Positions 11,463 through 26,666 of a stretch of 40,068 nucleotides of DNA are shown piece by piece; the stretch's first letter is position 1, and each line of letters begins with the position of its first letter. This DNA comes from Thermoplasmatota archaeon (lineage in GTDB: Archaea > Thermoplasmatota > Penumbrarchaeia > Penumbrarchaeales > Penumbrarchaeaceae): the NCBI GenBank assembly GCA_016928095.1, contig JAFGLL010000039.1:1-40068 (forward strand). Reading direction: 5' to 3'. Both the position numbers and the translations under genes were made by a program. The notes under the pieces are model-generated. The model had not been told where the DNA came from. It saw nothing but the letters and a program-made list of their open reading frames with translations, and did no database searches.

Positions 11463-14400
11463 CTACGGGGACGGGTGGTTGTCCTGTGAAGGTGGTGCTT
11501 CAGGCTTTGGGACCGTTCCGGCCGGAGCAGCCTGCATGGGAACCGGCTCGACGGGTTCAGGTGCGGGTTGTATTTCCGGTGGTTCCTGCTGAGGTTCGAC
11601 CTGAGGCTGTTCGTCGCCAACGGGTTCCGGCTGTGGTTCCATGGGCGGCTCCTGACCGATGTATGCCTCGGTGGGAGCTGCCGGGAGGGCCTCAAGCTCC
11701 TGTCCGGCCCCGGTGGCAGAAGGCAGTGCGGGACCGGAGACACCCGGATATGCTACTCCGCTCAGGAGGGCCTGTAGCTGTTCCTGGGCTGCCAGGGCAT
11801 CCTGCTGCTGTTGTGCGACAAGTGCCTCATGTGCCTGCTCCTCTGCTTCGGCGGTCCGGGCCAGGGGGTCCTTCCTGAATACAAAGAACAGCAATACCGC
11901 CAGGAATATCACCGCAACTATTATCAGGATTATTATCAGGGTCATCGTCCCGGTATCACCGGTTTCACCCTCTTGGTTGAACGGTATCGTATCCTCTTTG
12001 ACCGTCACGAAGATCCGTATGGTGGTGTCCTTCTGCACCCCGAAGGTGTCCTTCACAACGAGCCTTATCGTATAATTCCCGGTTACACCGAACCTGTGTT
12101 CGACCACGTTCCCCGCATTCGTTATCTCTTCCCCATCGCTGAAATACCATTCATATGTGAGCCTTTCATCGGAGTTCGGTATGTCGAAGTCAGGGTCGTA
12201 GCAGTCCTCCGCTTCGAACCTGATCCTTTCTCCCTTCTCCTGTACCAGGTTGGCCGAGTCTGCAGGGCTTGATATGACCGGGTCGGTCATCTCATCATTG
12301 GTGTTATCGACCACGAGTCGGATCGATACCGTGGAAGATGCATCGTTGCTATCTGTAACGGTAATATTGAAAAGGTGCTCCCCCACAAGCGCGTTCGACA
12401 GGAACACTGAAAGGTGTCCCGAATTGATCTCGAACTGGAAATCGGATTCGGGTATCTCCCCCACCTTATCAAGGAAATCCGTTGAGAAAGTCCAGGTGTC
12501 ACCGAAGATCTCATCGACATCAGACGCATCCATTGTTATTACCGCAGTGGAACCCTGAACTCCCTGTATCAGTACGGTCTCCCCGAAACCCACCGCTTTT
12601 TGATTGACGAGATCGATAGTCGGGACATCGTTCACGGAGACCACGGTAACATTGATAGTAACGGTGGGCCAACCCTCTTCATGGACCTTTGTGTCAAAGG
12701 CCTCTATAACGACCTTATCATCGCCAACCCAGTTCGGATCGGGGATGAAGGACACAGCATTGGTCACCTGGTCTATCACCACCTGAACATGCCTCTGGCT
12801 CTTCACACGGTACGAAAGGTCGTCGCCGTCCCTGTCATTGAAATAGGATATCAGTTCGATGAGGTCATATCCTTCTTCGTCCTCGTTGATGGTTATATCC
12901 ACATACTCGATCAATACCTCTGGCACGAAGTTCACTATGTTGGTGGTGAGTTCTGTGCTCTCTCCGTACGAGATACCATCGTAGGCTTTCACGACGACCT
13001 TGATATCCTCACCTTCGTGAGTCCTATCGGACGGGAGTGTCATGAGGTTCAGACCGGATGACAGGAGCACCCAGCTGTTCTCCTTGAATGCATACCAATC
13101 GACGAGATAGACTATATCGTCCACCGGATCCGTGTCGACATCCGTGCTTCCATTGAGAATGACCACCGTTATGTCATCTCTGGTCGACACCGGTCTGTTC
13201 AGAAGATCGATGACTGGCGTGGTGGGCGGTGTGTTGACCGTTTCGAAGCTGAAGATGATCGAATCGGAAAGACCCCACGGGTCAAAGGATGTGATCTCCA
13301 CCCAGTAGATGCGATTGTAGCGGAGGTTCTTGACGAAGGTATATTCACTTATGTCCACTACCTGGTCCACCACTAAATGTTCCCCGGTGTAGAGATCGTC
13401 CATATAGACATTTACATTGTAATTGATGATATCGCTGTTCCAATCCCATGCCTCGCTCCAGTTCAAGGTCGGCCTCTTCTGGTGTGTCGCCTCGGGGGTG
13501 TGCCCGGGCGGGATCGGGAAGAGAGGAGGTCTGTTCTCCGAGAGGAGTATGCTCCTCTCTATATTGCCCTCGAGGTTCTCGCTTCCGCCCGAGTATGGGA
13601 CATAACCATCCTTGTCCACGGTAATAGTCACCGGATTGTAGTCATAGGTCGTTTGCCCCACGATCCTGTATGATGGGACATGGCCCGAAAAGGAGCCGTC
13701 GAAGATGGTGAAGGACCGTTCAATGATGTCACCCGTTGATGAATAGACCACCACCTCCGCGAGGTCGATGGGTTGTAACGTAACATTGTCTGCAACCGTA
13801 AGCGTTACCCTCCAGAACTGCCAGAGCTCCGATTTGCTATCGGCTATGGAGACCAGGTTCATCGGGAGGGCGATCTCGAACACCTTGGCGATGGAAGCTC
13901 CATTGAGCTTCACATCCATATTATTGGACTGCATGACAGCTTCCATGAGTGAGAAATTGGCACCGGCTATCGCGCTGATCGCGGTGTTCGTCGATCTCTT
14001 GAACGATACGTTCTTGATCTCGATGTAATGGCCTCCCTCGATGAGAAGCCCTATGGCGTTCTGGTCGAAGGTGCTTTTTCGGAGAGGGAAGGTACCTGTC
14101 TCATCAAGGTGTAGTCCAATTTCCGTATTTGAAGTGAACTCGTTCGAGTCCATCTCGATCCTGTTACCCTGTATCCTGGCACCTATCCTGTTATTGTTGA
14201 ACTTGTTGTTGGCGATGAGAGATGAGCATCTTGCCCCTGCTAACAAACCGATGTCGGTCCCGTAGATCTCGTTCATGGTGATGGTGGGGGAAGCGTCCTC
14301 CAGCAGGGTTACGCCATTGGCGGTTGTGGAGTTGATGATGTTCCCCGATAGCATCAGGGTGTCACCGGTATCGACCTGGACATTGCCCAATACGTTATCG

Positions 14401-15617
14401 TATATTCTGCAGCTGGAGACCGCACCGCCTGACCCCTGGTCATAGATCCCGTAGCCTGCGTTCCCGTAGATCTTGCAGTCGAACAAGGATACATCCACCT
14501 GATCATCTACCGGGATGTTCACTCCATTCCCCCCGTTGTAGGCTATCTCCACCCCGCTGATGGTAGCAGGACATGATTCGAATGAGGAGCCGATACCGTC
14601 CATACCGTTGTCCTTCACCATGCCGCCGTTCACGACCACGGTCTGTGTGTAAGCGGTATCGTGGGCCAGCTCGATCCCAAAATTCGAGTTGCCGAACATA
14701 TCGCAGTTGTTCAATGTAACGGCCCCGCCCCTCCTCGCCGAATAACCGAACTTGGCGTCCGCGAAAACGCAATCGTTCAGCGTCATGGAGGCGTAGTTGA
14801 TGGGGTCGAAGGTCATTGCCAGGTCCGGGCATCCCCTCAGGTCCACATTGTCGAACCTCCCGGTGGCCCCGTAGAAATACTGGGCCCCTCGGTATCCGCT
14901 GCCCCTCAATGTCAGGTTGGTGACGGTGGGACTGGATCCGGCCCCACCCGCGAAGAGTGCCCATCCTGTGACGTTCTGGACATACACGTTGTTGATGATG
15001 GGATCGTATCCTCCAAGGGTGTCCTCGGTGTCGCTAACCGTCGATATGGCGGACTGCTCAGTGTTGAATATGCTAACGTTCTGTATCAGGATATCATCGC
15101 TGTAGCACTGGATGCCGCCTCTCGCCGAGGAGAGTGAGTTACCATTAGCTCCCCACATGTAGCTCAACTCGCAGTTCTCGACCCTTGCCTTCCCTCTGAT
15201 ATCGAACTTCCAGTGTATCCCCCATGTCTTGGACCAAGGAATTCCGCCGGACACTTCCACCACGGTCGAAACATCATTTGCAGTGAAGTTACAGTCGTGG
15301 TTAATGTACAGTGTACCACCGGCCTTCACATATAGACCATACTGTCCATCGGTCGTACCCCCCCACATAATGTCGGTACCATTTATGTAGAGCGTTCCGC
15401 CGGAATTGACCTCGATGTTCGCTTTCATGATCCATTGCTCGTTGTTGATGGATTTGACCTCACCGTAATTCACAATATAGCTCGATGTCTGCTCCGTGAA
15501 CTCCGTAGGTTCCTCAGCCTGGACCGATTCTCCTCCCGCCGGTATGTTCACAAGAACGGTAGAACCCAGCAGTATGGTCACTGTCATGACGATCAATAAT
15601 ACTTTTTCTACTTGCAT
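11463..15617 (-). CDS. Giant membrane-anchored parallel beta-helix surface protein
   Basis: The start chosen is ATG at 15617 after GGTGGGG, giving 1384 residues; the longer frame would run into hutH. A signal peptide (about 4-28) is followed by a right-handed parallel beta-helix of PbH1/NosD type (about 60-575), then a carboxypeptidase-regulatory-like domain (about 605-690), an FN3-like domain (about 700-795), two to three cadherin/Ig-like domains (about 796-1110) and a PKD-like domain (about 1115-1200, ending YTIRLVVKDTFG). One membrane helix (LIIILIIVAVIFLAVLLFF) precedes a cytoplasmic tail of about 135 residues, rich in Gln, Pro and Glu. It is probably a glycosylated surface protein binding polysaccharide or forming appendages; the precise function is unknown. 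Nearby glycosyltransferases and a subtilase fit a surface role. Confidence 0.85.
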   Translation of the reverse strand: MQVEKVLLIVMTVTILLGSTVLVNIPAGGESVQAEEPTEFTEQTSSYIVNYGEVKSINNEQWIMKANIEVNSGGTLYINGTDIMWGGTTDGQYGLYVKAGGTLYINHDCNFTANDVSTVVEVSGGIPWSKTWGIHWKFDIRGKARVENCELSYMWGANGNSLSSARGGIQCYSDDILIQNVSIFNTEQSAISTVSDTEDTLGGYDPIINNVYVQNVTGWALFAGGAGSSPTVTNLTLRGSGYRGAQYFYGATGRFDNVDLRGCPDLAMTFDPINYASMTLNDCVFADAKFGYSARRGGAVTLNNCDMFGNSNFGIELAHDTAYTQTVVVNGGMVKDNGMDGIGSSFESCPATISGVEIAYNGGNGVNIPVDDQVDVSLFDCKIYGNAGYGIYDQGSGGAVSSCRIYDNVLGNVQVDTGDTLMLSGNIINSTTANGVTLLEDASPTITMNEIYGTDIGLLAGARCSSLIANNKFNNNRIGARIQGNRIEMDSNEFTSNTEIGLHLDETGTFPLRKSTFDQNAIGLLIEGGHYIEIKNVSFKRSTNTAISAIAGANFSLMEAVMQSNNMDVKLNGASIAKVFEIALPMNLVSIADSKSELWQFWRVTLTVADNVTLQPIDLAEVVVYSSTGDIIERSFTIFDGSFSGHVPSYRIVGQTTYDYNPVTITVDKDGYVPYSGGSENLEGNIERSILLSENRPPLFPIPPGHTPEATHQKRPTLNWSEAWDWNSDIINYNVNVYMDDLYTGEHLVVDQVVDISEYTFVKNLRYNRIYWVEITSFDPWGLSDSIIFSFETVNTPPTTPVIDLLNRPVSTRDDITVVILNGSTDVDTDPVDDIVYLVDWYAFKENSWVLLSSGLNLMTLPSDRTHEGEDIKVVVKAYDGISYGESTELTTNIVNFVPEVLIEYVDITINEDEEGYDLIELISYFNDRDGDDLSYRVKSQRHVQVVIDQVTNAVSFIPDPNWVGDDKVVIEAFDTKVHEEGWPTVTINVTVVSVNDVPTIDLVNQKAVGFGETVLIQGVQGSTAVITMDASDVDEIFGDTWTFSTDFLDKVGEIPESDFQFEINSGHLSVFLSNALVGEHLFNITVTDSNDASSTVSIRLVVDNTNDEMTDPVISSPADSANLVQEKGERIRFEAEDCYDPDFDIPNSDERLTYEWYFSDGEEITNAGNVVEHRFGVTGNYTIRLVVKDTFGVQKDTTIRIFVTVKEDTIPFNQEGETGDTGTMTLIIILIIVAVIFLAVLLFFVFRKDPLARTAEAEEQAHEALVAQQQQDALAAQEQLQALLSGVAYPGVSGPALPSATGAGQELEALPAAPTEAYIGQEPPMEPQPEPVGDEQPQVEPQQEPPEIQPAPEPVEPVPMQAAPAGTVPKPEAPPSQDNHPSP

Positions 15618-15783
15618 ATGCCCCACCTGATACACGTCTCTACTAGGAAGCAGGATTGTGCACACAACACAACCTCTATTAGGATAGCTGTTAAGTATTA
15701 CCGTTTTACCATATTTAATTTTCCATGACCGGAGAATGCACTGGACACGGTTCCCTGTGTGCTGCCGAAAAGGAAGTGCATGA

Positions 15784-17307
15784 TCAGAGAGCAAGCTCTC
15801 CCAACTCGTCCTCCACCGCTTTGACCAGTCTTCCTGAGCGTATCAGTTCCGAGATCGCCTTGATGTGCGGGTGGATCGACATGTCCTCCTCCATGAACGG
15901 TACCACCTCGCGGATGATGCCAAGGGCGATCCGCGGTCCCTTGCCGGGTGATAGCGGACCTCTGAGGTCCAGCGCCTGCGCTGCCGCAAGCATCTCAACG
16001 GCGAGGACGCCGATCGTGTTCTCATGCACCTCCTTGAGGTGCCTGATCGCGATCGGCCCCATGGAGACATGGTCCTCCTGGTCCGCGGACACGGAGATGG
16101 AATCCACGGATGCGGGGTGGGATAGCACCTTGTTCTCTGATACCATGGCGGCAGCGGTGTACTGCGCCACCATGAGTCCCGAGTTCATCCCCGCTCCCCT
16201 GATCAGGAACGCCGGGAGACCGGACAATACCGGATTGAGAAGTCTATTGGTATGCCTCTCCGAAAGGTTGCACATCTCGGACATCCCGATCTTCATCAGG
16301 TCCGCTGCAATGCCTATCGGCTGTCCGTGGAAGTTCCCGGCCCCTATATGCTCCATCTCATCGGGGAAGAAGACCGGATTGTCAACGACGGAGTTCAACT
16401 CGATCTCTATGGTCTCCCTTGCGTACTGCCATAGATCAAGGGTTGGCCCGAGGACCTGAGGGGTGCATCTCATGGAATAGCCATCCTGGACCTTTCCGGA
16501 TGGTCGTGCAAGGATCTCGGAATCGGACAGAAGCTTCCTGAGATGGGCAGCCACCTTGATCTGTCCCTTATGAGGCCTGACCAGATGGACCCTCTCATCA
16601 AAGGGTTTCACGACGGTGTTCAGAGCGTCCAGCGACATCGCCGAGGCTATCAGGCCGTTCTTTATCAGGTTCTTTGCATCATACAGCAGCAGGCACATCT
16701 GCCCGACCATGACCTGCGTCCCGTTGATGAGTGCAAGCCCTTCCTTGAAAGTGGGTTCGACAGGTTCGATCCCGGCCATCCTAAGAGCTTCGGGTCCAGG
16801 ATGGACGGACCCGTTATACCTGGCCGTACCCTCCCCGATAACGACCTCTGCTATCTGGGACAGAGGGCTCAGGTCCCCGGAGCATCCAACGGAACCTTTC
16901 TCGTAAACGACGGGGACCACTCCTTTGTTGATCATATCTATATAGGTCCGGGCGGTGGAATACCTCAGACCGCTGTGTCCCTTTGGCCATACGTTCGCTC
17001 TCGAGACCATGGCAGCCCTGACCTCCTCTTCCGGAAGCACGTTCCCGTAGGATGCGGAGTGTGAGACTATTATCTTCCTCTGAAGTTCGAGCCCCTGTTC
17101 CGGAGACAGGATCACCGATGAGAGCTCCCCGATCCCGGTGGTCACTCCGTAGATCTTCTCTCCCCTGCGGACAAGCTCATCGATCATTTTCTGACATCTT
17201 TCTATCCTTGAGATCCCCTCTTCGGAGAACCTCACACGGGCCCCATGTCTGGCGACATTCACAACGTCCTCATAAGAGGAACCATCACCGTTCAGAACGA
17301 CTTCCAT
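15784..17307 (-). CDS. hutH: Histidine ammonia-lyase
   Basis: The 507-residue protein belongs to the MIO-dependent aromatic ammonia-lyases, which deaminate L-histidine to urocanate. Tyr54 in YGVTTG, Ser82-His83 (histidine-type selectivity rather than the HL of tyrosine lyases), QDGYSMRCTPQVLGP, GAGNFHGQPIG and SADQEDHVSMG are all present. The MIO triad at 142-144 is Cys-Ser-Gly within GSVGCSGDLSPLSQ, where Ala-Ser-Gly is usual. The ATG follows GAGGTG at six-base spacing. A TATA-like ACATTTAAGG lies about 50 bases upstream. No hutU, hutI or hutG gene is nearby, so the gene stands apart from a full histidine degradation operon here. Confidence 0.9.
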   Translation of the reverse strand: MEVVLNGDGSSYEDVVNVARHGARVRFSEEGISRIERCQKMIDELVRRGEKIYGVTTGIGELSSVILSPEQGLELQRKIIVSHSASYGNVLPEEEVRAAMVSRANVWPKGHSGLRYSTARTYIDMINKGVVPVVYEKGSVGCSGDLSPLSQIAEVVIGEGTARYNGSVHPGPEALRMAGIEPVEPTFKEGLALINGTQVMVGQMCLLLYDAKNLIKNGLIASAMSLDALNTVVKPFDERVHLVRPHKGQIKVAAHLRKLLSDSEILARPSGKVQDGYSMRCTPQVLGPTLDLWQYARETIEIELNSVVDNPVFFPDEMEHIGAGNFHGQPIGIAADLMKIGMSEMCNLSERHTNRLLNPVLSGLPAFLIRGAGMNSGLMVAQYTAAAMVSENKVLSHPASVDSISVSADQEDHVSMGPIAIRHLKEVHENTIGVLAVEMLAAAQALDLRGPLSPGKGPRIALGIIREVVPFMEEDMSIHPHIKAISELIRSGRLVKAVEDELGELAL

Positions 17308-18490: not shown

Positions 18491-20827
18491 CTAAACCCCT
18501 CTTCGCTTCTTCTTGTAAAGGACCCATCCTCCGGTCAGGGCCGCGGCGACGATCAGGAGGCCAAATATGAAAGGCCAGGGTGACCCCTTGTCCTCATCCC
18601 CATGTGTGTCCTCCTCGAATGGCAGGACCCGGTCCAGATCGTAGACCGTCCCCATTATAGACACCACACCGCCCGGGTACCCCTGGGAAGGTATCCCTCC
18701 TTCCCAGCGGGAAACCATGGAATTGGGTGTCGGAGGGAACACCTCCAGTATTCCGGTCTCGGGGATGGCCACCTTCATGCTCACCCCTATGGTGTATTCG
18801 ATCCTCAGTTCCATGTATTCTCCGTCCTGGACAGGCCTTATGAGCTTGAAACCCCGCCCGTACACCCCTATCGCCCAGTACATGTTCGTCTTACCTTCCA
18901 GTTCGGTGAAGGTATGGGTCTTGCTCCCCAACGTCATCGTCCTCAGGAAAGGCTCCTGGTAATCCACCTCCCCGTCAAAGCCGTGATCGACGATGAAGGT
19001 GAGTTCCCCCATGGTCCTATCCACCACGTCTATGGGGTTGAAGTTGAGGTTGATGGTGATCTCCTGGGCACTCTCGGGGACCCAGACGAGCCTGGACTGG
19101 TTCTGGACCAGTATAGGGCTGTCACCGTCCTGCGCATATCTGGCGAACTCCGCGCTCCACTCCGTTTCAAGGATATCGGTGGATAGCTCCCTTGCACCCT
19201 GTCCGAACACTTCCCGACCATTGTATATCCCGATAGCATCCTTGACGGTCCATTTATCATGGGGATACCTTGTCCTCAACTCCTGGAGGGTCAGTGCTAT
19301 TCCGACCGCCTTCTCGGCGTTGACCAGGCCGTAACCCTGGGCCCAATCGATCCTCCGGCCGTCCCATCCGATCTCGGTCTCTCCGCGATCGGATGCCTCG
19401 GGTACACCGTTATCCTCCTGTTCGTTCGATAGCGGGATGCCGTCGGGTTCCAGGTATGTCGCCGACTGCTCCATTATCCATTCGACCTCATGTATGCGGT
19501 TGTATTCGTTCCCGTACCACCATTCCTTGTCGGGACCGGAATAGTCCTCCCATCTATCGGAAATGGTTAGGGAAGGGGCGGCTTGGAAGATCAAGGCAGC
19601 GAGACCTGATACATGAGGGGTCGCCATCGAGGTTCCAGAGATAGCCAGATAATAGGGGTTCGGATTGCCCGCGATCTTGGACATTGCGGAGATCTCCGTC
19701 AATCTCGCATGGGCGGACCATATCTTTACACCAGGGGCACCCACATCGGGATAGGTCTGATTGAGGCCCTTCATCCCTCTGGATGAGAAATATGCAATCC
19801 CCGAACCGTCCCTCTGGAAGGCCGCCACCCCGATGTTCGACGGGATCAGGCCCGTTGGGGATGCGGTCAGTTCCTGGCCCTCATGGTATCCGCTGCCAGC
19901 ATTGCCCATGGCAAAAACGACAACGACGTTATTCTCGTAGGTGAGCTTCTGGCAGATCTGAGAGGTGGCATCCTGAGGGTCGTATTCGGCTGCTCCCCCT
20001 CCCCACGAATTGGAGACCACCTTTATGTTCATTTGATTAGGTTTTTTCGAATTAAGATATACCCACTCCAGTCCCTCGTAGGTGTTGGTGAGGGTTATCC
20101 CGACGTCACCAACGCAAAGACCTATCAATTTGGAACCGGGTGCGACCCCTGCTCTGGCCCCTGCAGATGCATCCCCGTTACCCGCAATGGTCCCTGCGCA
20201 GTGGGTCCCGTGACCGTAGCTGGTGTCGGAGTTCTCGATCTCGTAGAACGGTCTCCCTGGTTTATCCTGTTTCAGGTTGATGATGGTCTTCTCGCCATAG
20301 TCAAGGTCCGGATGACCCGCATCTATGCCGGTATCCACCACCGCGACTGTCACACCTTCCCCTGTTATTTCGGGGTACCTGTCCCTTGTGGACCGGATGA
20401 AGCTGTTCCAGGCGATCGTGGCGTTTATGGTGGAAAGGGACTCTTCCATCAGAAGTTCCAGCTCCCCGTCATATTCCATCCAATAGGTCCGGGGGTAACC
20501 GGAGAGCCTTTCGAACCCTTCGCTGGTCCCCTCGAGAAGCACCGCAGGGAGAGCCTTCATTGTCGCGATATGCTTCAATCCTATGCTTTGGGCATATACT
20601 ATATCAACCTCGATAGGCCAGCTTCTGAATTGCACCAGAGATCTGAATGTCTCCTCTCCATCTTGCTCCTTCATCATCTTCTGAAGGAAGGGGTCGATCG
20701 CTCCATCGAACCTTGAATATGTGGCCGGACATTCCGGGATGAACGCCGACATTGTCGGGGTGATGAGGATACCCAGAATAAGGGTGGCAATTACGAAGGC
20801 CGGATTCGTGATCGGATGTCTGGGCAT
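18491..20827 (-). CDS. Membrane-anchored subtilisin-like serine protease (S8)
   Basis: The 778-residue protein has a signal peptide (about 1-28) and an I9-like propeptide (about 60-125). The S8 catalytic domain contains Asp165 in VVDTGIDAGHPDL, His206 in GHGTHCAG, the oxyanion Asn309 in AMGNAGSG and nucleophile Ser400 in GTSMATPHVSG. The domain is interrupted near 425-500 by a tryptophan-rich insertion, and an approximately 200-residue beta-rich region follows. A C-terminal helix (WPFIFGLLIVAAALTGGWVLY) with a KKKRR stop-transfer tail anchors it outside. It likely processes or degrades extracellular proteins, perhaps the beta-helix proteins nearby. A TATA-like ATAAATATATGG lies about 40 bases before the ATG. 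Confidence 0.92.
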   Translation of the reverse strand: MPRHPITNPAFVIATLILGILITPTMSAFIPECPATYSRFDGAIDPFLQKMMKEQDGEETFRSLVQFRSWPIEVDIVYAQSIGLKHIATMKALPAVLLEGTSEGFERLSGYPRTYWMEYDGELELLMEESLSTINATIAWNSFIRSTRDRYPEITGEGVTVAVVDTGIDAGHPDLDYGEKTIINLKQDKPGRPFYEIENSDTSYGHGTHCAGTIAGNGDASAGARAGVAPGSKLIGLCVGDVGITLTNTYEGLEWVYLNSKKPNQMNIKVVSNSWGGGAAEYDPQDATSQICQKLTYENNVVVVFAMGNAGSGYHEGQELTASPTGLIPSNIGVAAFQRDGSGIAYFSSRGMKGLNQTYPDVGAPGVKIWSAHARLTEISAMSKIAGNPNPYYLAISGTSMATPHVSGLAALIFQAAPSLTISDRWEDYSGPDKEWWYGNEYNRIHEVEWIMEQSATYLEPDGIPLSNEQEDNGVPEASDRGETEIGWDGRRIDWAQGYGLVNAEKAVGIALTLQELRTRYPHDKWTVKDAIGIYNGREVFGQGARELSTDILETEWSAEFARYAQDGDSPILVQNQSRLVWVPESAQEITINLNFNPIDVVDRTMGELTFIVDHGFDGEVDYQEPFLRTMTLGSKTHTFTELEGKTNMYWAIGVYGRGFKLIRPVQDGEYMELRIEYTIGVSMKVAIPETGILEVFPPTPNSMVSRWEGGIPSQGYPGGVVSIMGTVYDLDRVLPFEEDTHGDEDKGSPWPFIFGLLIVAAALTGGWVLYKKKRRGV

Positions 20828-21023: not shown

Positions 21024-22523
21024 ATGCCTAGCGATGCTCCGGACCGACTCATATCCGCATCAGAGGTGGAGAGGTGGTGCTATTGCCCGCTGTCCTGGAA
21101 GCTTGAAAGGATGGGAGCAAAGGAGGATACCGAGGTCCTTGACCGGGGATCCGCCAAACATGAGCAGATCGGAATGAAGGTCGGATCGGTCAAGATAGCC
21201 CAGAACAAGGCAAGGGAGGACACCATTATAACATGGACCTTTTTGATATTCTCCGTTGTCCTGCTCCTGATGGGGATCTCCCTGGTGGTCGTCACCTGGG
21301 TGGGTTCGCTGTACATAGACATATGGAGGATCGGGGTCATTTTCTTCTCCATCCTCCTGATCGGGGTGTCGGTGGTCTATTATTTTTCCCGAAGGCAAGA
21401 AGATGGAAAGGGGCCATTCGATTCCCTGAAAGGGGTGTTCGGGAGCATGGGATCGAACAGATTGAAGAGGTCGAACACACCTCTTCTATTCTATCTCTAT
21501 GGAATTCTTCTGATGGTCAATGGTGTGATACTTCTCAGACCATTTGGTATGGAGCATCACATCATATCGGCAGTGCTGGCCGGATCGTTGTTGCTCCTCT
21601 ACCTGATACTTCTGATATCGTTCACCAATTACTTCATGTCACGCAGGTCCGACCCGGACCGATCAGGTTCAAAGATAGGAGGGCCTATGGTCCTCATGCT
21701 GCTGATATCATTGTCCGTCCTGTTCATCTTCATATCCGATGAGATCGACAGCAGGGGGGATCTGGGCTGGGCCTTCCTTTTCATCTCATTGCTATGGTTC
21801 ATCGGGGCGATAGGATACGATCTTGTCAACCAGTTCCGGAGAGGTTTCAGGAAGAAAAGGTCCACGAGCAAAGAAGAGCTCACCATCACGGTGCTTGCAC
21901 TTTTGGCATCGGTCTTCACGGCATCGACGTTCCTTGCCAAAGGGGACAATCTCCAAGAATACTACCTTGCATCGGTGGTTATGGCAGCTGCTTGGCTGAT
22001 AGGGGCTGTCTTCTTCTTCTGGAGGGGGATATATCAGAGAAGGACCGCCGAGAACGGTCTTGAGGAACTCTCCCTTCCGACCGAGGCCAGGATAGTCTCA
22101 TATGACGATCCAAAGCTGAGGAAGGAGAATAGACCGCTGACCTCGATCAGACATTTCCTCGTCGGTACCCCGGACCTGCTCCTTGATGAAGAAGGATACA
22201 AGATACCGGTCGAGGTCAAGACCGGGCGTATCCCGCCCAGATCTCATTTCAGCCATGTCATGCAGCTTTCCGCTTATATGATACTGACCGACGTGAACTT
22301 CGACCAGACGACCCCTTACGGGTATATCGATTACTCACCCGGTGACAGCGAGGGAAAACGGTTCAAGGTGGAATGGGACCTCATGACAAAGGCGCTCGTG
22401 CTGTCCAAGGTCTCCGAGATAAGGGAGGCAGAAAGGACCGAAGAGGTCCATCGCAACCACGAAAGGGCCGGTAAATGCAGGAACTGCTCACGGAGCCAGG
22501 GCTGCCCCGAAAAGCTTGTCTGA
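21024..22523 (+). CDS. Cas4-like PD-(D/E)XK nuclease interrupted by a multi-helix membrane domain
   Basis: The 499-residue protein begins like Cas4/RecB-type nucleases: LISASEVERWCYCPLSWKLE (Cys19, Cys21) and RGSAKHEQIG (His46). Residues 68-335 then form about eight membrane helices in pairs joined by basic loops. The nuclease resumes with GTPDLLL (Asp384), PVEVKTG (Glu397, Lys399) and HVMQLSAYM (Gln414, Tyr418), the full catalytic series. A C-terminal Cys cluster (Cys485, Cys488, Cys494) would, with an N-terminal Cys, hold the Fe-S cluster known for Cas4. The even helix number keeps both halves on one side, presumably cytoplasmic. It has its own leaderless promoter, and no cas1, cas2 or CRISPR array is in the window. 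The role, perhaps membrane-localised DNA processing or defence, is inferred. Confidence 0.85.
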   Translation: MPSDAPDRLISASEVERWCYCPLSWKLERMGAKEDTEVLDRGSAKHEQIGMKVGSVKIAQNKAREDTIITWTFLIFSVVLLLMGISLVVVTWVGSLYIDIWRIGVIFFSILLIGVSVVYYFSRRQEDGKGPFDSLKGVFGSMGSNRLKRSNTPLLFYLYGILLMVNGVILLRPFGMEHHIISAVLAGSLLLLYLILLISFTNYFMSRRSDPDRSGSKIGGPMVLMLLISLSVLFIFISDEIDSRGDLGWAFLFISLLWFIGAIGYDLVNQFRRGFRKKRSTSKEELTITVLALLASVFTASTFLAKGDNLQEYYLASVVMAAAWLIGAVFFFWRGIYQRRTAENGLEELSLPTEARIVSYDDPKLRKENRPLTSIRHFLVGTPDLLLDEEGYKIPVEVKTGRIPPRSHFSHVMQLSAYMILTDVNFDQTTPYGYIDYSPGDSEGKRFKVEWDLMTKALVLSKVSEIREAERTEEVHRNHERAGKCRNCSRSQGCPEKLV

Positions 22524-22557: not shown

Positions 22558-23172
22558 TCAACTGAAACGTATCCTCTTCCCCGGCCTCTTGGCGTGTTTA
22601 TGTGCGGAGACCGAGGGACGAACCTTTTCAGCTCCCATCCCCTTGCTCATGAGACCGCGACTCCTCTTTCCGGCAGAGGTCAGGCCTCTATGGACCCTCC
22701 CTGTATGCTGCCTTTCATGGATCCAGTTGATCTTCGGATCGTTCACGATGGATGGATGATGTGGGTCGACGAGTATGACCTCGTAGAACTTGTGCTTTCC
22801 ATCCTCACCGACCAGATAGGAGTTCAGGACCTCCATGTTGGAGTGCCTCTTGGCGGTCCTCTCCTCGGCGATCCTCTGAAGGTTCTTCTGGACCCTCATC
22901 CGGATGATACCTTTCCTCTTGGCACGGCGACCCTTCCGTATGGCCCTCTTCCTCAGTGACCCCATACGGACCTTTGCCCTTACGATCACATAACCCTGTT
23001 TGGCACGATATCCCAGGGCTCTGGCCCTGTCAAGCCTCAGCGGCCTTTCCATACGGACGAAGGTGGGCTCGTGTCTCCATTGGACGAGGCGCTCCCTGTT
23101 GATCTCCTTTACCTCTCCGTGATAGGGTCTCTTCCATGCCTCGCTGATATATTTGTATACGCTCTTGGTCAT
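22558..23172 (-). CDS. rpl15e: 50S ribosomal protein L15e
   Basis: The basic 204-residue protein reads MTKSVYKYISEAWKRPYHGE and continues with YRAKQGYVIVRAKVRMGSLR, then HRGLTSAGKRSRGL near the C-terminus, all conserved in archaeal and eukaryotic L15e of the large subunit. The ATG at 23172 was chosen because it gives the family's usual N-terminus; a GTG at 23196 would add eight residues. It is convergent with the nuclease gene (gap 34 bases) and monocistronic, with a leader of about 90-100 bases. Confidence 0.97.
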   Translation of the reverse strand: MTKSVYKYISEAWKRPYHGEVKEINRERLVQWRHEPTFVRMERPLRLDRARALGYRAKQGYVIVRAKVRMGSLRKRAIRKGRRAKRKGIIRMRVQKNLQRIAEERTAKRHSNMEVLNSYLVGEDGKHKFYEVILVDPHHPSIVNDPKINWIHERQHTGRVHRGLTSAGKRSRGLMSKGMGAEKVRPSVSAHKHAKRPGKRIRFS

Positions 23173-23309
23173 CACGTTCACTTCCTTGGGATTCACCCCA
23201 AAGGGGGTACATTTCCCGGTCTTACGACACGCGGAGGGAACAATCCCCCTGTAAGCGTGGAGATGGGTCGAAACTGCTGCTACTATTTAATCATATCCCG
23301 GACGCATGC
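23173..23309 (-). promoter_or_regulatory. Promoter and structured leader of rpl15e
   Basis: On the minus strand a TATA-like GATTAAATAG lies near 23284-23293. The leader holds a hairpin at 23228-23259: CACGC pairs with GCGTG and GGGGGA with TCCCTC around a TTGT loop. CTTAC (23221-23225) and GTAAG (23251-23255) offer a competing pairing. A structured leader on a ribosomal-protein gene could mediate autoregulation, which is inference. Confidence 0.35.
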
Positions 23310-26300
23310 TCATTCCTCGGTGTGGCCTGTTCTATCCTTACGCCTGTTCGATCTGGCAATGAGCCCTATGATCATCAGAACGAGAAGCAACACCATGGGG
23401 ACCCCGCAGCAGAGGTAGCATCCTACCTTGAGACCATTGAACGGGTCGTCCTCCTCCTCTTCCTCCATGACAAGCCCACCGGATGGAATGGTGATGTTAT
23501 CGTTCGCCTCGACGGACCATGTAAGATCCTCGTACCCATCCTTGCTGAAGGTGAGCATCCTGGGACCTTTATCCACCATTATGATGAAGTTACCGTTGGA
23601 ATCCGTCTCCGTCGTGGCACCATCGTCCGATCCGACCTTGACCCCGGATATGCCATTATCTTCCTTGTCAACCACCTTGCCCGATATCCTGACCTTCTCC
23701 GGAGGGATCTCCTCGGAATAGATATGGAAGGCGACGGATACCTCTCCGATGTTGCCGGCCTCATCCACTGCCCTGACAGCCACCGTATGGTTGCCGACCT
23801 CGAGTCCCGTGATATTGAAGAACGAACCGGGTCCGACCAGGACCCAATCGGATCCGTCGACGCTGATCCAGTGGGTGGGCGTTCCCGGTGCGGTCTCGAC
23901 CGTGAACCATCTGACGTTGATGTCCCTGTCCAGTGTCTGCAGATCGTCCACAGGCCATAATATATGCACATCCGGAGGTGTCAGATCAACGAAGATTTTC
24001 TCCATTGCCGTATCATGATTGCCTGCCAGGTCGGTGGCCATCACCATGACCTCATGGGGGCCTTCTGACAAACCTTCGAACAAAAAGCCAAGGGAGGTGT
24101 CGACATCCACCCATTCACCTTCGTCCATCCTGACGTCATATCGGGCGATATCGTTATCATCGACACCCATCCACATGAGCATGAACGTCGTTCCCCTTGT
24201 GATCAGGTCCTCCGGATCATTGGTTATCTCCACCTGCGGAGGGGTGAGGTCTATTATGAAGGTGATGCTGGTCCCGTTCCGGTTCCCCGCAATATCCACA
24301 CCCACAAGATGGAAGACATGGTAGCCCTCGTCGATAGGTCCGATCGAGACGTTATCGGCATTGCCTGCGTTCACCGGGTCCCGGTCGTCCAATTGGTACT
24401 CGAAGTGGTCCAGGGAAACGTCATCGGTCCCGTTCCATGAGAACATCAATTCGGTACTGTTCGTGATGTACCCGTTCACGGGAGAGGTGATCTCCACAAC
24501 GGGCGGGGTTCCGTCAGGGGTGACGGACACCTCCGCTGAGCTTAAACCTGTACCGTACCTGTTGAGACCCGCGACCCGGTAATGATATTCCACATTGTTC
24601 TCCACATCAAGGTCCAGCAGAATTGTGTCCTTATCCTCCACCAGGAAGGTCTCGACCAAAGGCCTGTCCCCTTCCCTCTTGAAGACGATATATCCTTCCA
24701 CCTCTGTATCCATGTTGAATTCCGGTGGAGACCAGGTCAGTGTCACCATACCGTTACCCGGAACGGCCATGAGGTTGATGGGCCCGGAAAGGAAGACAAC
24801 GGGTGGTACACAAAGCGGGTATGAATCGAAGCTCTCTCCTCCGAATATTAGGTAAGGGTCGTCCACTATACCGTCAAGGTCATCGTCCGGGGTCAGATGA
24901 TCGCTCCAGTAATTTCCCTTCCCATCGATATCCCATCGGTTGTTCACCGATCCGTCCCTGGCCTGTATCCGGGACGGGGAATAGACATCATCGGAACCGC
25001 GGTTCTTCAACATATCGTTCCCTGCGAGGACGTTTGAGTGGGACTCGCCGACCCATATCCCGAACCCCGTCGAGTTGTAGATGAGGTTCCGGGAATAATG
25101 ACCCCCCATTGACCGGTTAAGTTCGATCCCTGTTCCATTCGTATCCTCGATCCGATTATCCGTCACGGTGTTGTGCCAGGATCCGCCCCAGTACCTTCCG
25201 TTGACGCTGATGGCCAATTGCGATCCCTCTATCAGATTGCCCGAGACAGTAATGTTCTTCGTATTGAACAGCTCGATACCGGTCGATCCTGTGGATATGG
25301 TGTTGTTGGTTATCCTGGACATTTCCTCCATCTGTGCATATATACCCCTGTTCTCGAAATCTATTATCTCATTGCAGGCCACTGTATTGTTCATACCCTT
25401 TGAGATATCGGACATGGTAGTAACAAGGCTGATACCATCCCAGCAACCTACCATCCGGTTCCATGAAATGGTATTGTCCATGGAGGACCCGAACAGGTAT
25501 ATTCCCCTGTCCCCGGCAATATCGTTACCCGTTATGACATTCCCGCGACCTCCTTCCATACTGATGGCCGTTTCCTGGATACCGTTGAACCCGTTCCATA
25601 GGATGGTGGAATTGGACGTCCCGAAGAGTACCATCCCGTTATCGTGGGCGTTCACGGTGCAGTTGGTTATGGACAGCCCGTCACAGTAACCGGCTATGAC
25701 CGCGACCGTTCCTCCTTCGAACTCGATGGATGACAATGAGATCCCCGTGACACCTGCAAGAATGACCTCCCCCGCATTGGCGGGTACCCTATTTCCATGC
25801 GTACTTGAGCTACTGTAATAATAGATAGGGTCCCCGTTGACCGTGTTGTTCTTCGTGATGGTCTGTTCCATGATGGAACCTTGTTCATCGTAGAACCCGA
25901 TACCCCCGGCGATCATCTGGTTCCCCATGAAGATGTTGTCCGGGCAGTATCCCAAGACAGCCAAGGCGTCATTGGTATTGTTCTGGACAACATTGTGCTT
26001 GAAGGAGCATTCCTCCATGTTGGTCACCAGTATCCCGTTTCCCTTGTTGATCATGATCGTGTTCCCTTCTGCGATCACGCGGCTGCCGAACGATAGTTCG
26101 AGTCCAGATCCATGATTGGAGACCATCAGGTTCTCTTCGATCCGGATATCGGAGCACCTGAAGGCTTGGACACCCGAGGACATGTTCGAATCTGAGATGG
26201 CGTTCCTGTAGATGGTGACATTCAGGCATGTGTTCAGCATGATGTTCTGGTATTCATTATCGTAGATCATATTGTCACGAATGATCCCGTTCGATACCCC

Positions 26301-26666
26301 CACCAGGTATATCCCGTTGCCCTTGTACTGCGGACTTGTCTCCGTATCGGCATTGTGTACGTGGCAGTCAAGTATGACGAAGTGCTCCTCTGTTCCACCT
26401 ATGAATATCCCGAAGCTGCTACCGGTCGCATCTATGTCCAGGTCCTCTATCCTGTAAGGGTCGTTCTCGGTCCCTGCCCCGGGCCAACCTTCTTCGGAAG
26501 CCTTCTGGCTGAAATTGTTGTATATATGGATGGGGGCATGGGGCAGATATGGGGCCCTATCTATCATTGGCTCGACCCGGGTATGTCCGGCAAGGGACAA
26601 TGAAGCGGTCATAATGACCATAGCGATGATGACAACAATCGTTCCTGATATCCTTATGGAGTGCAT
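23310..26666 (-). CDS. Giant membrane-anchored NosD-type beta-helix surface protein
   Basis: The 1118-residue protein has a signal peptide (about 7-27) and a long right-handed beta-helix (about 40-600). The beta-helix has many Asn-rich coils and ends in WDIDGKGNYWSDH...YPL, the NosD signature. An FN3-like domain (about 635-720) is followed by three homologous Ig-like repeats of about 87 residues, each starting TPPxVxI (about 722, 805, 894), and a carboxypeptidase-regulatory-like domain (about 990-1060). The C-terminal helix (MVLLLVLMIIGLIA) has a basic tail. The domain plan mirrors the 11463-15617 protein, so the two are probably paralogous surface proteins. The ATG follows GGGGGAAG. A TATA-like TTTAATAATC lies about 45 bases upstream. 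Ligand and function are unknown. Confidence 0.87.
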   Translation of the reverse strand: MHSIRISGTIVVIIAMVIMTASLSLAGHTRVEPMIDRAPYLPHAPIHIYNNFSQKASEEGWPGAGTENDPYRIEDLDIDATGSSFGIFIGGTEEHFVILDCHVHNADTETSPQYKGNGIYLVGVSNGIIRDNMIYDNEYQNIMLNTCLNVTIYRNAISDSNMSSGVQAFRCSDIRIEENLMVSNHGSGLELSFGSRVIAEGNTIMINKGNGILVTNMEECSFKHNVVQNNTNDALAVLGYCPDNIFMGNQMIAGGIGFYDEQGSIMEQTITKNNTVNGDPIYYYSSSSTHGNRVPANAGEVILAGVTGISLSSIEFEGGTVAVIAGYCDGLSITNCTVNAHDNGMVLFGTSNSTILWNGFNGIQETAISMEGGRGNVITGNDIAGDRGIYLFGSSMDNTISWNRMVGCWDGISLVTTMSDISKGMNNTVACNEIIDFENRGIYAQMEEMSRITNNTISTGSTGIELFNTKNITVSGNLIEGSQLAISVNGRYWGGSWHNTVTDNRIEDTNGTGIELNRSMGGHYSRNLIYNSTGFGIWVGESHSNVLAGNDMLKNRGSDDVYSPSRIQARDGSVNNRWDIDGKGNYWSDHLTPDDDLDGIVDDPYLIFGGESFDSYPLCVPPVVFLSGPINLMAVPGNGMVTLTWSPPEFNMDTEVEGYIVFKREGDRPLVETFLVEDKDTILLDLDVENNVEYHYRVAGLNRYGTGLSSAEVSVTPDGTPPVVEITSPVNGYITNSTELMFSWNGTDDVSLDHFEYQLDDRDPVNAGNADNVSIGPIDEGYHVFHLVGVDIAGNRNGTSITFIIDLTPPQVEITNDPEDLITRGTTFMLMWMGVDDNDIARYDVRMDEGEWVDVDTSLGFLFEGLSEGPHEVMVMATDLAGNHDTAMEKIFVDLTPPDVHILWPVDDLQTLDRDINVRWFTVETAPGTPTHWISVDGSDWVLVGPGSFFNITGLEVGNHTVAVRAVDEAGNIGEVSVAFHIYSEEIPPEKVRISGKVVDKEDNGISGVKVGSDDGATTETDSNGNFIIMVDKGPRMLTFSKDGYEDLTWSVEANDNITIPSGGLVMEEEEEDDPFNGLKVGCYLCCGVPMVLLLVLMIIGLIARSNRRKDRTGHTEE

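Follow-up and report, generated by a model that had tools for sequence, protein, structure and literature searches.

A predicted membrane-embedded Cas4-like nuclease widespread in Thermoplasmatota

Cas4 nucleases are familiar as soluble enzymes of CRISPR adaptation or of repair. The stretch of Thermoplasmatota DNA analysed here (40,068 nt, hereafter the window) carries on its forward strand, at 21024..22523, a coding sequence with an ATG start for 499 aa plus stop, in which a Cas4-like nuclease appears to be split in two by a membrane domain. This raises the questions of whether the two flanks still form one nuclease, and what such an enzyme would do at the membrane. A fusion artefact of assembly could be excluded because homologues of the coding sequence (25–64% identity, many of them full length) occur in many independent genomes.

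All motifs listed in an initial annotation of this DNA were found at the positions given there. The N-terminal flank (aa 1–67; 21024..21224, +), delimited by joined-flank profile matches and AlphaFold, holds the Fe-S ligand C21 in a YCP motif within SASEVERWCYCP and the active-site region around H46. The C-terminal flank (aa 338–499; 22035..22520, +), supported by AlphaFold and by Pfam matches to PDDEXK_1 (366–495) and Cas_Cas4 (380–494), contains GTPD at 381–384 with the metal ligand D384 (22164..22175, +), EVKTG at 397–401 with E397 and K399 (22212..22226, +), QLSAY, a QxxxY motif, at 414–418 (22263..22277, +) and a CxxCx5C tail, C485-x2-C488-x5-C494, with three Fe-S ligands (22476..22505, +). 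The catalytic H, D, ExK and QxxxY are present in order in an alignment of 49 members that are 25–64% identical. The G, P and D of GTPD, K399, Y418 and all four cysteines (C21, C485, C488 and C494) are invariant, and E397 and Q414 are kept in at least 90% of members, so the earlier claim that catalytic and Fe-S positions are retained extends, invariantly or nearly so, to these divergent relatives. One N-terminal and three C-terminal cysteines suit a predicted Fe-S cluster.

The native protein matches PDDEXK_1 (E 7.8e-9) and Cas_Cas4 (E 1.8e-6) above the curated cut-offs, both in the C-terminal half. Joining the two flanks improves the PDDEXK_1 match to E 2.8e-10 in one stretch (residues 10–221 of 225), improves the Cas_Cas4 match as well, and raises the PADLOC Cas4 model from 53 to 60 bits over profile positions 5 to 160 of 161. 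The best PDB profile matches are the Cas4 entries 4ic1, 8d3l and 4r5q (E 1e-7 to 5e-7). Given the Pfam E-values, the gain on joining the flanks and the motifs kept across divergent relatives, the nuclease match is not a chance one. The predicted PD-(D/E)XK fold, the N-terminal Cys with the CxxC..C tail and the H, D, ExK and QxxxY motifs are shared with Cas4 (PF01930 / TIGR00372; 4ic1, 4r5q, 8d3l and 7mi4), and by residues and predicted fold the protein belongs to the Cas4 / PD-(D/E)XK Fe-S nuclease superfamily. However, the NCBIfam cas4 equivalog TIGR00372 scores 51.9 bits for the native protein and 52.9 for the joined flanks, below its cut-off of 65.

Structure prediction points the same way. 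AlphaFold, run on the window protein with 49 sequences, gives a mean pLDDT of 76.7 and a pTM of 0.69, with pLDDT about 92–98 over most of 371–470, lower values at the tail, mostly 82–95 over 11–70 and low confidence (about 48–75) in the membrane part; a four-helix relative reaches a mean pLDDT of 91 and a pTM of 0.80. The model of the window protein contains a confident nuclease core, and from the confidence values and the profiles the N-terminal flank is predicted to pack onto it. Foldseek returns type I-C Cas4, Cas4/Cas1, MGME1, ACE1 and EXO5 at the top of one search and Dna2, Cas4 and MGME1 at the top of another, with AdnA also among the structural neighbours. Dna2, EXO5 and Cas4 have an Fe-S cluster in common. 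Dna2, MGME1, EXO5 and ACE1 have a related fold but are soluble and lack a membrane insertion. The suggestion that both flanks belong to a single Cas4-type nuclease is therefore upheld by the joined-flank profiles, AlphaFold and Foldseek alike.

Between the flanks lies a strongly predicted membrane domain of four helical hairpins, or eight helices (aa 68–337; 21225..22034, +), defined by hydropathy and positive-inside charges. Hydropathy shows eight peaks (window starts 72, 103, 153, 180, 218, 250, 286 and 315) over residues about 68–335, in agreement with the eight helices first proposed. The last helix of the N-terminal flank continues into TM1, and in the model helices 36–92 and 310–348 pass from the nuclease into the membrane. 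Most relatives have four helices in ~330 aa; two helices occur in others and eight in the window's class. For 128 proteins we counted the helices that lie from the N motif to GxPD and obtained 4 (103 proteins), 8 (7), 2 (7), 3 (10) and 7 (1); 117 of the 128 thus have 2, 4 or 8, and counts of 3, 5 or 7 are most likely threshold effects. In 114 of 117 proteins, the charges near the helix ends indicate that both nuclease halves face the cytoplasm, with a K+R fraction of 0.209 inside vs 0.059 outside, as expected from the positive-inside rule. Together with the even helix number, this agrees with the earlier claim that the flanks lie on the same side of the membrane, and we predict an integral membrane protein with both flanks cytoplasmic. 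A Cas4 fold interrupted by membrane hairpins is the architecture to which sequence, structure prediction and comparison all point, and we regard it as well supported. The hairpin array would interrupt the fold between the N-terminal Cys/His helices and the catalytic sheet. Because the helix number is even, the chain ends up back in the cytoplasm, where the halves would come together as a single active nuclease lying against the inner membrane face.

The hairpins themselves appear to have multiplied. In the four-helix form the two hairpins are homologous repeats (hhalign 98.1%, E 8e-14), and each scores a median of 26–28 bits against the profile of the other, whereas 291 control hairpins score at most 13 bits; growth by hairpin duplication is thus evident from the sequences of this form. 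Among the four hairpins of eight-helix proteins, the third and fourth match those of four-helix relatives, whereas hairpins 1 and 2, including those of the window protein, mostly find no match to the four-helix hairpin profiles; hairpin 2 of one eight-helix relative (L040) clearly matches by sequence. Hairpins 1 and 2 of the window protein have no demonstrable homology to 3 and 4, and for this protein the same mode of growth is inferred. Variable, repeated hairpins are also found in channel and sensor modules, and the hairpins could accordingly be a sensor or channel, with the nuclease acting on RNA or another substrate. One relative does carry a C-terminal RNA-binding TRAM domain, but the catalytic core is nearest to DNA nucleases and no known channel fold was found among the Foldseek matches, and we consider this reading very improbable.

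In one family, f17, the gene is naturally split, which could serve directly to test whether the halves assemble through the membrane. The C-terminal half is present in 30 of 30 genomes searched, and in 22 of 30 loci the N-terminal half is a separate, overlapping ORF, never in the same frame (19 junctions). The break falls in an external hairpin loop, leaving one helix on each piece, and this position agrees with the predicted topology. A Shine-Dalgarno-like GRGGTGRT stands just ahead of the N-half stop in 17 of 19 junctions (L177, L179–L184, L186, L187, L189, L190, L192–L195, L197 and L198). The C-frame codon that overlaps this stop reads ATA in 14 of the 17, TTG in 2 and TTA in 1. The junction may reflect re-initiation at a rare start or a −1 frameshift.

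The initial annotation treated the window protein as a single odd case, but it belongs to a family that spans the phylum. In the window's class, 11 of 12 genomes carry the membrane Cas4-like gene. A phylum search gave matches in 245 of 390 genomes with weak f8 and f29 matches included, and in about 209 of 380 Thermoplasmatota genomes and 39 of 54 families without them, in samples that differ by ten genomes. A 906-aa ORF in genome G049 is a false extension; the real protein begins MGYSAAD. The single window protein retrieved zero relatives from a scan of GTDB genome contigs and the alignment confirmed 263, so an alignment query is essential. Among the best 80 of the 263, all are Thermoplasmatota or Euryarchaeota/archaeon records of uncertain placement, with Aciduliprofundum/DHVE2, Methanomassiliicoccales, Halarchaeoplasmatales and others represented. 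A phylum-wide distribution of the architecture in Thermoplasmatota is therefore well supported.

For phylogeny, we removed the membrane columns and compared 47 membrane members with 22 ordinary Thermoplasmatota Cas4 retrieved with PF01930, most of which lie next to cas1 or are fused to it; hydrophobic peaks are absent from these 22 apart from one each in L210 and L219. All 47 fall on one side of a branch with support 100/99, as a clade of their own. The tree would fit a single gain of the membrane architecture, at a node where, according to a tool warning, long branches meet. Such a phylum-wide, membrane-built branch of Cas4 would represent a new use of the fold.

The gene does not behave as part of a CRISPR system. 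No Cas1 was detected in the window genome and none of the ORFs annotated in the window was a cas gene, in line with the earlier description of a solo gene outside cas loci. Across the phylum, Cas1 is present in 30 of 209 carrier genomes vs 47 of 171 non-carriers. With a TIGR00372 score below the cut-off and no cas1/cas2 adjacency, the protein is not a CRISPR-associated Cas4 as that model defines it, and the lack of Cas1 in its own genome and the separate clade rule out a CRISPR adaptation protein. Instead, it is a solo-Cas4 in the sense of Hudaiberdiev et al. 2017 (PMC5704561), in whose survey Cas4 family genes likewise lie outside CRISPR loci, are vertically inherited in archaea and have no assigned function. 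The main text of that survey contains no Thermoplasm- names and describes no domain architecture, insertion or membrane domain, its sole 'membrane' match being in a gene-name list. In the titles and abstracts of the open-licence literature searched, we found no description of a membrane-split Cas4, as the initial annotation had supposed; this absence is no proof, but within that literature the architecture appears not to have been described before.

The surroundings are of a chromosomal housekeeping type, with ribosomal, sugar metabolism, transport and tRNA-modification genes; no tRNA genes or Rfam families were found within the window. Across the window's class the Cas4-like gene stands alone between the ribosomal protein L15e gene (22558..23196, −; Pfam), whose adjacency is a matter of synteny that in part rests on an antisense ORF, and a divergent gene for a secreted subtilisin-type peptidase (18491..20827, −; Pfam) that is conserved in the window's order. 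Neither neighbour is considered part of the system. This gene content gives no support to a defence-island setting. A mobile element gene is rejected as well: searches of viral contigs and phages gave no relatives, and a search of plasmids gave no full-length one, its matches being Dna2/Cas4-domain proteins on Bacillus plasmids that cover ~42% of the query. These observations bear on the proposal of an innate membrane nuclease that attacks the ends of foreign viral or plasmid DNA at entry, as a constitutive barrier. The Cas4 fold, the membrane position and the frequency of the gene where Cas1 is absent (179 of 209 carriers) would suit such a barrier, but vertical, phylum-wide inheritance in stable housekeeping neighbourhoods, the lack of any match to a membrane-Cas4 model in PADLOC and the absence of viral, phage and full-length plasmid relatives do not, and we think it rather unlikely.

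One recurrent partner elsewhere is a protein with a lamin-tail domain (LTD), a PLD domain with two HKD motifs, an N-terminal signal-like stretch and a C-terminal helix, which is predicted to be secreted and membrane-anchored. Of 80 named loci, 21 from several lineages have its gene beside the Cas4-like gene in the same orientation, 20 times upstream (at most 28 bp apart or overlapping as called) and once downstream; overlaps of at least 150 bp probably reflect start-codon choice in the ORF caller. On the tree the adjacency requires six changes, at least five of them forced. LTD-PLD proteins occur throughout the phylum (246 of 380 genomes) and are found in 165 of 209 carriers vs 81 of 171 non-carriers, a co-occurrence confounded by ancestry. 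Lipids, too, can be substrates of PLD-like enzymes. The partner has the same layout of signal, lamin-tail domain, hydrolase and C-terminal anchor as ExeM-type LTD nucleases (PMC6085458), although its catalytic domain is PLD and that of ExeM is EEP, and the likeness concerns the neighbour and not the window protein. ExeM, with its C-terminal anchor, was recovered almost exclusively from the cytoplasmic membrane fraction (PMC6085458), and by analogy its location may be a fair model for the place of the partner.

A link to DNA import through ComEC is not supported. A profile search (PF03772; control positive in 10 of 14) detected no ComEC in 380 Thermoplasmatota genomes, so any DNA import would need another route. 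The claim that the nuclease acts on incoming DNA is plausible, with indirect support from the recurrent same-strand LTD-PLD adjacency. We give an even chance to the best overall explanation, a nuclease that is tethered to the membrane and processes DNA at its inner face, working independently of CRISPR adaptation. It would most likely resect or degrade strands of DNA arriving at the membrane or passing through it. Where a lineage has an upstream LTD-PLD exoenzyme, the pair might make the first cuts in DNA outside the cell and complete the digestion within, serving nucleotide salvage, removal of foreign DNA or both. Counting against this explanation, the gene in the window's class has no LTD-PLD neighbour; the homologue of the window genome lies far from the Cas4-like gene (contig C13:14824-16605 of G000, in a 2070-codon open frame). 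A bolder version, in which anchored LTD-PLD outside, membrane Cas4 inside and oligomerised hairpins as a possible DNA passage make up a new transmembrane DNA-processing system, is doubtful. In Thermoplasmatota, with few CRISPR systems and no ComEC detected, the membrane Cas4 would provide a testable entry to DNA handling at the cell surface.

A second recurrent neighbour bears on a further alternative. In 11 sampled loci and 14 named ones (for example, L068:3510-4292), the gene immediately upstream encodes, in the same orientation, a TPD-domain (PF14811) protein; these include many Methanomassiliicoccales-like genomes in which glmS flanks the other side, an arrangement that may be inherited synteny. 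Human CDIN1, a relative of the TPD protein, has been described as a nuclease (PMC11911400). The immediate same-strand pairing with this TPD/CDIN1-type gene (23 tree rows), near-universal vertical inheritance, neighbours such as rpl15e, glmS and trm1 and the structural neighbours Dna2, MGME1, EXO5 and AdnA could all indicate a housekeeping repair or replication nuclease with a Dna2- or MGME1-like fold, whose membrane anchor would serve its localisation or the handling of the chromosome. However, repair enzymes of this group are soluble, an elaborate membrane domain that varies between 2, 4 and 8 helices points to a role beyond anchoring, and the LTD-PLD pairing is left unexplained; we hold this possibility to be a minor one.

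Two further features were observed in passing. The relative with the TRAM domain (L009/L039, genome G002) carries it in a C-terminal extension (Pfam E 3e-8). The window also encodes two very large beta-helix/NosD proteins on the minus strand (11463-15794 and 23310-26666) with Ig, PKD or fn3 domains, which are probably surface proteins.
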